This document shows positions 1 to 2,705 of a stretch of 52,034 nt of DNA, one piece after another. This DNA is from a virus. The notes under the pieces are model-generated. The model had not been told where the DNA came from, did not search any database, and saw nothing but the letters and a program-made list of their open reading frames with translations. The stretch spans positions 1-52,034 of IMG/VR virus record IMGVR_UViG_3300024346_000096; one strand, written 5' to 3'. Positions within the stretch are counted from its first letter, which is position 1. Each line of letters begins with the position of its first letter. Position numbers and translations under genes: made by a program.

Positions 1-675
1 TTTAATAACTTTACCTATATTCATTATTAATAAGCCACCAAGAATACCAGCTATAGCTCCGCCATTTTCTTTTAGTATTTCTCCAGCTTTACCAAACTCT
101 CCAGCAAAGACATTTTCAACTACCTCTACCATGTCTCCAACAAAGTTTAGAATTTTAGTCAGGCCTGCAGCAAAGGCTTGAGGATTAAGTAAAAGAGTAG
201 CCAAACCAGCAATACCAGCTAAGAAGCCACCAGATTCTTTTACCTTACCACCAAAGCCTTCAATACCTTTAGCCATTTTACCAAGTAATGAATTAGCTTC
301 ATCTTGTTTCTTTATGGCTTCTCGTCTATCTTCTTCAGACTTTACACCAGCCTTTATAGTTTCTAATTGATCTTGGGCTGAGTTTAAAAGTTCTTGGTCA
401 AATGGTAATCCTTGCTCTTGTAATGCTACTTGTTCTTGCATTACAGCGTTAACGTTAGCAAAACTTTCCCTGAGTGCGGCGGAATTTTCATTTGAATCAA
501 TACCTAGACTTCCTTCCAAGGCTTTAATCGATTTTTCGACGTCGACATTAGCATCAACACTCTCTTCTACATTTCGAGATTGTTGTCTCATTTCGGCAAC
601 TAGTTCCTCAAGAGATTTACTCTGTTCTTCTAAAATATCTCTATTGTCTGTGTTATTTGTATTGTCGTCGGCCAT
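1..675 (-). CDS. Tape-measure-like / large virion protein, N-terminal part (runs off window)
   Basis: This is an open frame of 225 codons from an ATG at 675 down to the left edge with no stop, so only the N-terminus is seen. An AAGGA-like ribosome site lies upstream. Residues 1-130 are polar and rich in E, Q, K and R and look like a long coiled coil (for example ILEEQSKSLEELVAEMRQQS). From about residue 145 there are glycine/alanine-rich hydrophobic segments (GGFLAGIAGLATLLL, GGAIAGILGGLLIM) that could span or insert into a membrane. This coil-then-hydrophobic plan is typical of tail tape-measure proteins, and in many tailed phages the tape measure lies just downstream of a frameshifted chaperone pair, as here. 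I did not recognise a specific family. A gp29-equivalent role is inferred; another baseplate-hub or structural protein is possible. Confidence 0.5.
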   Translation of the reverse strand, partial: MADDNTNNTDNRDILEEQSKSLEELVAEMRQQSRNVEESVDANVDVEKSIKALEGSLGIDSNENSAALRESFANVNAVMQEQVALQEQGLPFDQELLNSAQDQLETIKAGVKSEEDRREAIKKQDEANSLLGKMAKGIEGFGGKVKESGGFLAGIAGLATLLLNPQAFAAGLTKILNFVGDMVEVVENVFAGEFGKAGEILKENGGAIAGILGGLLIMNIGKVIK

Positions 676-796: not shown

Positions 797-1120
797 TTAT
801 TTTTTCTTTCCCATTGCTTGTGTACCAAAGAAAGCAGCAACAATACCAGCAACAGCTACAAAATAAGTAGGTGCCATATCGCCTAATGTTTCTTGGGCTT
901 GATCTAAACCAGCTAGTGATGCAATAACAACAGCGAATGGATATAACAATAATCCACCAAGGGCAAACCATGTCATGTTACGTTGTGCATCTCGCATCGC
1001 GTCAGCATCTTCTAGCTCTTTACGTTTAAACTCTAAGTATAATGCCTCTTCAGCCGCACTTACTTTACCATCACCATTTGTATCTGCTGGATGGAAAGTT
1101 TCTTTTACTTCTTCTGTCAT
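797..1120 (-). CDS. EF-hand membrane protein, 107 residues
   Basis: The N-terminal soluble part carries a canonical EF-hand loop at residues 13-24 (DTNGDGKVSAAE) with acidic or oxygen ligands at loop positions 1, 3, 5, 9 and 12. A charged helix (KRKELEDADAMRDAQRN) follows, then two hydrophobic segments at about 49-72 and 85-103, ending in a basic GKKK tail. It therefore looks like a two-span inner-membrane protein with a calcium-binding head. Its ATG (1118-1120) overlaps the stop of the gp51-like frame as ATGA, so it belongs to the same operon as gp26. The family is not one I can name. Holin-like or membrane-signalling roles are guesses. Confidence 0.7.
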   Translation of the reverse strand: MTEEVKETFHPADTNGDGKVSAAEEALYLEFKRKELEDADAMRDAQRNMTWFALGGLLLYPFAVVIASLAGLDQAQETLGDMAPTYFVAVAGIVAAFFGTQAMGKKK

Positions 1121-1260
1121 CTCTTTTGTTTCCTATTCTGTTCAGCTATTCGCTCATTTTCTTCTCTGATCCATTGTTGAAGGAGTGCTACGTATATCTC
1201 CCTTTCCCACGGTATCATATCTTCTAGTTCTGTTAAACTATACTTATGATGTTGCATCAT
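1117..1260 (-). CDS. 51: gp51-like C-terminal domain, probably read by -1 frameshift from gp26
   Basis: In the -1 frame relative to gp26 there is an uninterrupted reading frame from the slippery run at 1314-1320 to the TGA at 1117-1119. From the first ATG (1260) it encodes 47 residues, including LTELEDMIPWEREIYVALL and a charged helix (EENERIAEQNRKQKR). The WEREIYV-type motif resembles the C-terminal parts of frameshifted tail assembly chaperones and the short gp51-like proteins of marine T4-like phages. No ribosome-binding site precedes ATG 1260 or 1257, which argues against independent initiation. The frameshifted extension would add 65 residues to residues 1-238 of gp26, giving a protein of 303 residues. 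The expected role is assisting baseplate-hub or tape-measure assembly. The gp51 label is by position and size and is less certain than the frame itself. Confidence 0.6.
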   Translation of the reverse strand: MMQHHKYSLTELEDMIPWEREIYVALLQQWIREENERIAEQNRKQKR

Positions 1261-1307
1261 CGAAAAGTTAGTTTTATAATAATTAACTAGTGTATCATGT
1301 GAAAGGG

Positions 1308-2027
1308 CTAGATAAAAAAACTTTGTACGCCTTCCAATGTTAGTTCTTGTTCATGCTTACAAGTAATACAACTAAACTCTACCTTATGCTTTAATGTAGG
1401 CAATGAACTAAAGAACTCAGTAATCTTTGCAAACTGCTCAGAGCTTAATCCCTCAATAAAATCATTTAACTCTTTTTCAGTTTGATTTTTACAATCCCAT
1501 ACTTCATCGCTATTAAATATACTCTTCATACATCTAGTAATAAGCTGTAGTGTTAGTTTCATTTGCTTATCCGGAGATGTTTTCTCTGGATTGTATTCCA
1601 TTTTACTAACTGTGTCTAGTGAGGGATACTCAAATTCTATTCCGATATCTTTAGTTACCATTACATGTTTATCTTTAGGTAACTCGGTCATCTTGATATT
1701 GTCTAGGTTTATTTCAATTGGTGTGAGTGCTTTACATTCTTCACATTTCAATTGAAGGTTTACCGATTCACCTACCGATTTTGAACGTAGTCTTAGGAAT
1801 AATTCCTCTAGATCAAAACTTGTAAGTTTATTAATATCAATATCATCAAATATACAGGCTTTTAATATATCTTTTAAAGCCTTTATCATCATTTTATTAT
1901 CCTTTGATTCCATCGCAACCATAAGGATCTTTTCTTCTTTAACTAGGAAAGGTCTAAATTCAACTTCCTGGCCAGTACTCGGAACTGTCACACTATACCG
2001 ACTACTGTTTACAATTGGCAAAGCCAT
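1308..2027 (-). CDS. 26: gp26-like baseplate hub / tail assembly chaperone
   Basis: A 239-residue protein starts at ATG 2027 behind an AAGGAGT ribosome site and reads MALPIVNSSRYSVTVPSTGQ. It resembles the T4 gp26 family of marine myoviruses: an N-terminal region binding or modifying the hub, and paired cysteines (CEEC near residue 110 and CITC near residue 220) that could form a zinc-ribbon-like pair. T4 gp26 (208 residues) is needed for central hub assembly. The end of the gene carries a T7 run just before the stop that leads into the gp51-like frame, as in the lambda G/GT chaperone pair. It is in the leftward late operon, 30 bases after the gp54-like gene. Confidence 0.75.
   Translation of the reverse strand: MALPIVNSSRYSVTVPSTGQEVEFRPFLVKEEKILMVAMESKDNKMMIKALKDILKACIFDDIDINKLTSFDLEELFLRLRSKSVGESVNLQLKCEECKALTPIEINLDNIKMTELPKDKHVMVTKDIGIEFEYPSLDTVSKMEYNPEKTSPDKQMKLTLQLITRCMKSIFNSDEVWDCKNQTEKELNDFIEGLSSEQFAKITEFFSSLPTLKHKVEFSCITCKHEQELTLEGVQSFFI
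1314..1320 (-). promoter_or_regulatory. Candidate -1 ribosomal frameshift slippery heptamer U UUU UUU
   Basis: On the minus strand seven consecutive T residues are phased as agT TTT TTT ATC TAG, five codons before and including the gp26 stop. This fits the X XXY YYZ rule exactly: after a one-base backward slip both tRNAs re-pair with UUU UUU and the next codon is UAU. The shifted frame stays open for 65 codons. A weak inverted repeat (AGTTA/TAACT) lies downstream, but I see no strong pseudoknot. Confidence 0.65.
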
Positions 2028-2057: not shown

Positions 2058-2705
2058 TTAAAAAATATCTAATAATGTTTCTGGTATCGCAGCTTTAAAT
2101 GCACTTGCTGTACTACTTAATGCTCCTTCCACTACATATTTATCGTATGCAAATACTACAGTTAAGCGCGTAAATTCTTCGTCCTGTGCACTTAATGCAA
2201 TTGCTGATACGTCAATGGGATATGCCTTCTCTAATTTAACACCAAAGACTGGAATATCTTGCTGATTTAGCTGTTGTATAACTATATCAGTCGAGTAATC
2301 ATTTTTATAGCCTAGCTGATAACCTTCAGTGTCAACAATGCTAGACATCCAAGTCTCAAAAAGTGTTTTAGCATAATAGTCGTTCGTTACAATAAAGTGC
2401 ATCGTAACGTCACCGTCAATACTAGTGTATGGAAATTTGTTACTCTGGCGATCTGACGCATAGTCTATTGTTGAGAAGCTACGAGAAGGTAATGTGACTT
2501 GTTCACATAGAATTGCTATGTCACGAGGATCATATATGGATTGCCTAATGCCCGCACTCTCACCAGATAACAAACGGCCAACAATTTGTTCTACATCGAT
2601 TCCTATCAATGGCTGTGTTGGAGGTGTGAATAATACTTGGAATCTATTATTCTTAGCAAGGCCACCCTTTTTGGATATTACCGCTTTTAGTTTATCTACG
2701 CTCAT
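2058..2705 (-). CDS. 54: gp54-like baseplate tail-tube initiator (tail-tube fold)
   Basis: This 215-residue protein follows the same plan as the gp19 tail tube at 49073: an N-terminal FQVLF strand, CEQVTLPSRSF, DVTMHFIVTNDYYAKTLFETW, a QLNQQ helix segment and a late KAYPIDVSAIAL strand followed by TVVFAYDKY. In T4-like phages a second tail-tube paralogue is gp54, the protein on the baseplate that starts tube polymerisation together with gp48. The gp48 gene lies just across the divergent promoter region, which supports the assignment. Its ATG overlaps the last base of the upstream gene. A different tube-fold protein cannot be excluded. Confidence 0.65.
   Translation of the reverse strand: MSVDKLKAVISKKGGLAKNNRFQVLFTPPTQPLIGIDVEQIVGRLLSGESAGIRQSIYDPRDIAILCEQVTLPSRSFSTIDYASDRQSNKFPYTSIDGDVTMHFIVTNDYYAKTLFETWMSSIVDTEGYQLGYKNDYSTDIVIQQLNQQDIPVFGVKLEKAYPIDVSAIALSAQDEEFTRLTVVFAYDKYVVEGALSSTASAFKAAIPETLLDIF

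Follow-up and report, generated by a model that had tools for sequence, protein, structure and literature searches.

A predicted −1 ribosomal frameshift at the end of gene 26 in T4-like phages and its probable replacement by gene duplication in the T4 branch

The gpG and gpGT proteins of phage lambda (Phage_TAC_2) are a short product and a rarer version of it extended by −1 frameshifting, encoded by a gene between those for the tail tube (V) and the tape measure (H). HK97 possesses a comparable −1 frameshift pair, gp13/gp14 (Phage_TAC_1; PDB 2OB9), ahead of its tape-measure gene. To our knowledge, T4 has long been cited as an exception without such G–T frameshifting. A published listing counts its gp26 and gp51 among the chaperones of hub assembly, gp51 being needed for assembly yet absent from the virion (PMC3004832). 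They come from separate genes: gene 26, on the minus strand, codes for 208 aa and gene 51, on the plus strand, for 249 aa. Among the relatives of T4, the gp51 of cyanophages was described as having only about 20% of the length of other gp51 proteins and that of Aeh1 was reported missing (Sullivan et al. 2010, PMC3037559).

Here, we analyze a viral DNA of 52,034 nucleotides (IMG/VR record IMGVR_UViG_3300024346_000096; hereinafter the window, in its full length), for which a −1 frameshift joining gp26 to a gp51-like domain had been predicted. From comparison of this locus with its relatives, we hold it very probable that a single gene gives rise to two tail-assembly chaperone forms via −1 frameshifting, and that the T4 branch duplicated this gene and lost the slip site. 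A search of mostly open-access literature yielded no account of a gp26/gp51 frameshift and no paper naming gp26 and gp51 as short and long forms; prior notice elsewhere is possible.

The gp26 locus and its slip site

All features of the window considered here lie on the minus strand. The gp26-like ORF (1308..2027) codes for a protein of 239 aa, the unshifted short form, which in a profile search matches PF12322 (T4_baseplate) over positions 3–218 of 219 (E = 1.7e-63; 214.7 bits, the curated cut-off being 24.5). In frame 0, it ends with ..CAA AGT TTT TTT ATC TAG, wherein the slippery heptamer T TTT TTT (1314..1320) stands in X XXY YYZ phase, one codon ahead of the stop TAG (1308..1310). After a slip of one base, the −1 frame reads TAT CTA GCC CTT TCA CAT.. 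and is translated as YLALSHDTLVNYYKTNFSMMQHH...KQKR, comprising 65 codons closed by a TGA (1119–1117). This extension (1117..1314, with base 1314 being read twice) is a gp51-type C-terminal domain: it matches positions 56–120 of 121 of phrog_634 (‘baseplate hub assembly catalyst’, gp51; E = 1.4e-30). Thus, the phased run of seven Ts, the TAT that follows the slip, the 65 open codons down to 1117 and the gp26- and gp51-like identities all agree with the original prediction. It had named the −1 frame ATGs at 1260 and 1257 as the only ones; both are present, but a third at 1218 had been overlooked. No ATG, GTG or TTG precedes these three in the −1 frame.

We propose that most ribosomes would translate gp26 and terminate at 1310–1308, while a fraction of them, at some presumed efficiency, would shift backwards by one base at T TTT TTT and append the 65 residues, resulting in a gp26–gp51 fusion of about 303 aa with the predicted junction peptide ...LEGVQSFFYLALSHDTLVNYYK. 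The structural model of the window gp26 has a pLDDT of 87, and the long form, modeled confidently by AlphaFold (pLDDT 92), is predicted to have the extension as a helical add-on.

Conservation of the heptamer and selection on the −1 frame

Related IMG/VR loci were fetched with gp26 alone as the query, making their choice independent of the slip site. The 80 closest relatives all retain an in-phase T TTT TTT, with the frame-0 stop coming one codon after it in 79 and immediately after it in one. Widening the set with S-PM2, pf16 and nt-1 queries and with cultured phages resulted in 245 loci, which form 92 clusters at 80% amino acid identity. Every one of these has an in-phase T TTT TT[T/C/G], distributed by cluster as T TTT TTT in 49, T TTT TTC in 42 and T TTT TTG in one, with no mixing of versions within any of them. 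Among the hosts named in the records for these phages are Prochlorococcus, Synechococcus, Pelagibacter, Methylophilales, Vibrio, Rhizobium, Caulobacter, Ochrobactrum, Pseudomonas, Stenotrophomonas and Desulfovibrio, to which junctions read later add Aeromonas (Aeh1, 65) and Sinorhizobium. Codon usage at the site is equally constrained: all 92 clusters use TTT as the first Phe codon, as compared to a 69% background (P about 1e-15), and the codon preceding it (Ser/Asp/Asn/Ala/Thr) ends in T in all 92 (P about 1e-22), both P values assuming independence of the clusters and thereby being upper limits on the surprise.

The extension lies in the −1 frame at all heptamer loci bar a single isolate. 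In Synechococcus phage S-SCSM1 (L085, 2480–2680), T TTT TTC is intact and extra bases shift the gp51-type extension, here with its own ATG, to another frame; either the sequence contains an error or frameshifting has truly been lost. Both the heptamer and the open −1 frame predicted for the window are conserved in related loci. Homopolymers are error-prone, and an assembly or sequencing error could in principle conceal an intact fused gene. Yet the same frame relationship recurs in 245 independent loci, extends to the T6C variants and is shared by the finished genomes of cultured phages (P-SSM2, S-PM2, Aeh1 and phiM12); this comparison refutes the error reading, whose remaining probability is negligible. 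Transcriptional slippage on the T run would result in mixed mRNAs, some with the fusion in frame, and the presence of a homopolymer accords with it. However, the runs are merely 6–7 Ts long, about half of the clusters have T TTT TTC with a different Z base, and the codon phase is invariant, which together make this mechanism very improbable.

Start codons and selection bear on how the −1 frame is translated. From the upstream −1 stop through the 12th codon past the slip, 72 of the 92 clusters lack any ATG and 55 lack any ATG, GTG or TTG. In the clusters without an early start, dN/dS over the 16 codons leading up to the first ATG is 0.09 in the −1 frame as opposed to 2.45 in both other frames (249 locus pairs from 61 clusters). 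These values indicate that purifying selection acts strongly on the −1 frame of the stretch right after the slip and thus that this stretch is translated in that frame, which ordinary initiation cannot achieve in clusters lacking an early start codon. A programmed −1 ribosomal frameshift at the end of gp26, as originally predicted, is accordingly strongly supported by the conservation of the heptamer, the frame and the selection among relatives.

The principal competing explanation is termination–reinitiation, wherein the extension would be a separate small gp51 started near the gp26 stop. A separate gp51 is indeed annotated in P-SSM2, S-PM2, nt-1, AF3 and Cr30, and nt-1, AF3, Cr30 and Marzo have TAATG or TGATG overlaps at the gp26 stop; moreover, in 17 of the 92 clusters an ATG lies 2–3 codons after the slip, such that reinitiation could also yield a free extension there. 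Nevertheless, most clusters, including the window, have no suitable start codon, conserved residues precede the first ATG, the heptamer is conserved even in loci with an ATG, and T4 gp51 is itself the fused form. As a general account of the extension, we hence regard reinitiation as improbable. It is probably the mechanism in the Ackermannvirus-type phages K364 and BX-1, where the gp26 stop lies within a TAATG and the heptamer is missing. Together with Salmonella phage SFP10 (L096, 3242–3246), where the sequence at the stop is TAATT and could provide an AUU start, they make up three phages of this type (L095, L096, L098) with a −1 gp51-type extension and no heptamer; these have lost or never had it and seem to initiate the extension at the stop codon. 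Separately, four phages (L086, L087, L088 and L094) combine the heptamer with a TAATG or TGATG overlap at the gp26 stop and may make both the fusion and the free extension.

Turning to frameshifting at the heptamer, its short:long ratio would be set by a downstream RNA stem and perhaps also by a Shine–Dalgarno (SD)-like sequence. In the clade of the window, RNAalifold detects a stem whose predicted 5′ arm, CCCUUUC-A-CAUG (1296..1307), begins 6 nt after the heptamer and pairs with a 3′ arm, CGUG-G-GAAAGGG (1200..1211), about 84 nt away. In a whole-arm swap test that corrects only partly for relatedness, the true arm pairs exceed in stability those made by exchanging arms between clusters (z −5.4); of 190 further arm pairs, a single one has a lower z, and the sole equally stable pair overlaps the stem itself. 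The stem is part of the minimum-energy structure in 28 of 42 clusters, and the fold of the window's own sequence has a z of −2.9. Two covarying third positions rank 38 and 237 of about 1800 and are individually unremarkable; thus, it is the whole-arm test rather than single covarying positions that argues for the stem. The TTTTTTC groups lack this downstream stem, and an Rfam scan of positions 1000–1500 of the window returned no match. On the 5′ side, a strong and suitably positioned SD-like GGAAGG (1330..1335) lies 9 nt upstream of the heptamer. A purine run of this kind, centered ~12 nt upstream, reaches −4 kcal/mol or lower in 85% of clusters; under synonymous resampling its mean rank is 0.49 (Wilcoxon P = 0.01). 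This points to the run being mostly a by-product of conserved [K/R/E]-Gly codons, with a role as a stimulator being possible.

Two-gene and one-gene states of the PF12322 family

Both T4 proteins match PF12322 end to end (gp26, 8.8e-64; gp51, 3.9e-52). T4 gp51 runs about 48 residues beyond this domain into a region that matches the extension family, with phrog_634 aligning to its residues 147–246, and the alignment places the end of T4 gp26 (..RGLKEFFELL) at the slip position, with T4 gp51 continuing through it. Thus, T4 gp26 is the short form and T4 gp51 the long form: by sequence, they correspond respectively to the unshifted product and to the frameshifted product fixed in one frame. The original prediction had taken T4 genes 26 and 51 to be split genes and perhaps derived. 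Rather than being one gene halved, they are evidently paralogs that arose by duplication, each with a whole PF12322 domain; the T4 state is still best read as derived.

A genome-wide search recovered two PF12322 copies in T4, Aes012, Acj9, 44RR, 31, avDM1, Kc304, TDDLMA and the L104 genome, and one copy in 20 other genomes, including KVP40, nt-1, Aeh1, 65, phiM12, P-SSM2 and S-PM2. The heptamer is absent from all seven of the two-copy genomes read at the junction and is kept in 17 of the 20 single-copy genomes, a distribution suggesting that T4 replaced the frameshift with a gene duplication. An intact gene 51 without a slip run, which the original prediction had named as counting against it, does exist, but only in phages holding a second full-length copy, and the frameshift is hence not refuted by it. 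T4-type gp26 and gp51 form sister clades in the tree (support 98/91), and the Straboviridae contain both states, with two genes in T4 and Acj9 and one in KVP40, nt-1, Aeh1 and 65. The simplest history would be that of an ancestral single frameshifting gene that was duplicated once in the T4 branch. There, one of the duplicate copies would have kept the short form and the other become a single-frame long form, with the slip site being lost once the long form was fixed in this way.

Two further loci deserve mention. Vibrio phage TDDLMA (L093, 1311–2653) has short-form and in-frame long-form genes in tandem on the same strand. We considered an independent second duplication in this phage and did not retain it: the tree sets its pair apart, but a single clade of duplicates is not rejected (p-AU 0.485). 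In a T4-type record (L108, 2501–3246), stops interrupt the gp51 frame close to its end, an indel in the record being the likely cause.

We consider it probable that gp26 and gp51 serve T4 as its G and GT, that their ancestor frameshifted, and that the T4 branch swapped recoding for duplication, in which case the T4 ‘exception’ would be derived and the essential but unexplained gp51 would be a long tape-measure chaperone. Such a history would account for the published remarks that T4 lacks G–T frameshifting and would offer a clear case of programmed recoding giving way to duplication and division of labor. It would also explain the short gp51 of cyanophages and the apparent loss of gp51 in Aeh1. 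In the latter phage (L278, 117500–120500), gp26 has T TTT TTC followed by a −1 extension, LTLVNDSVYDLFNVNYEM.., indicating that gp51 is present there, contrary to its reported absence. By the same token, hundreds of cyanophage gp51 annotations probably have wrong starts and should instead be represented as the frameshift fusion.

Relationship to known tail assembly chaperones

Upstream of gp26, the window codes for a tail-tube-family protein (2058..2705; phrog_45, E = 1.2e-36). On the other side, the TGA of the extension overlaps the ATG of a gene for a small protein of 107 aa with no family match (797..1120), and beyond it lies the start of a tape-measure-like protein with a coiled coil and then hydrophobic segments (1..675), which is cut by the contig end. 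This last gene is complete in the locus L001 (515 aa), and the genes at the corresponding position in Cr30 and OC give matches to tape-measure PHROGs. Thus, the downstream tape-measure-like gene of the original prediction is present, but as the second rather than the third gene after the extension. The order tail tube–gp26/extension–tape-measure-like gene is that of lambda V–G/T–H; taken with the listing of the T4 proteins as chaperones, it supports the predicted analogy, whereby gp26 and the gp26–gp51 fusion would be a G/GT-type pair of tail assembly chaperones. Their short and long forms would act on hub and tape-measure assembly, their presumed partners, as gpG and gpGT do on gpH.

As in lambda, the window gene would give a short product and a rarer −1 extended one, from a gene likewise flanked by those for tail tube and tape measure; like T4 gp51, the lambda proteins are required for assembly, with absence from the virion being known for T4 gp51. 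The systems differ in the heptamer, which is GGGAAAG in lambda (PMC4810235) as against TTTTTT[T/C/G] here, in the larger domain of the present family, many members of which have Cys pairs, and in the baseplate hub of the phage. Profile comparison, which had been proposed as a check, gave no sequence match to known tail chaperones, lambda G and HK97 gp13 included. HK97 gp13/gp14 resembles the window in being a −1 frameshift pair preceding the tape-measure gene; with the model of the window gp26 as query, chain B of 2OB9 had the highest probability (prob 0.60) among the PDB matches listed by Foldseek, a fold match that is not significant (E = 0.78; TM 0.42 on a 104-residue target). The T4 proteins, in contrast, are homologous to the window pair through PF12322, and differ from it in being encoded by two genes on opposite strands instead of one, and in having no slip site where the window gene has one.
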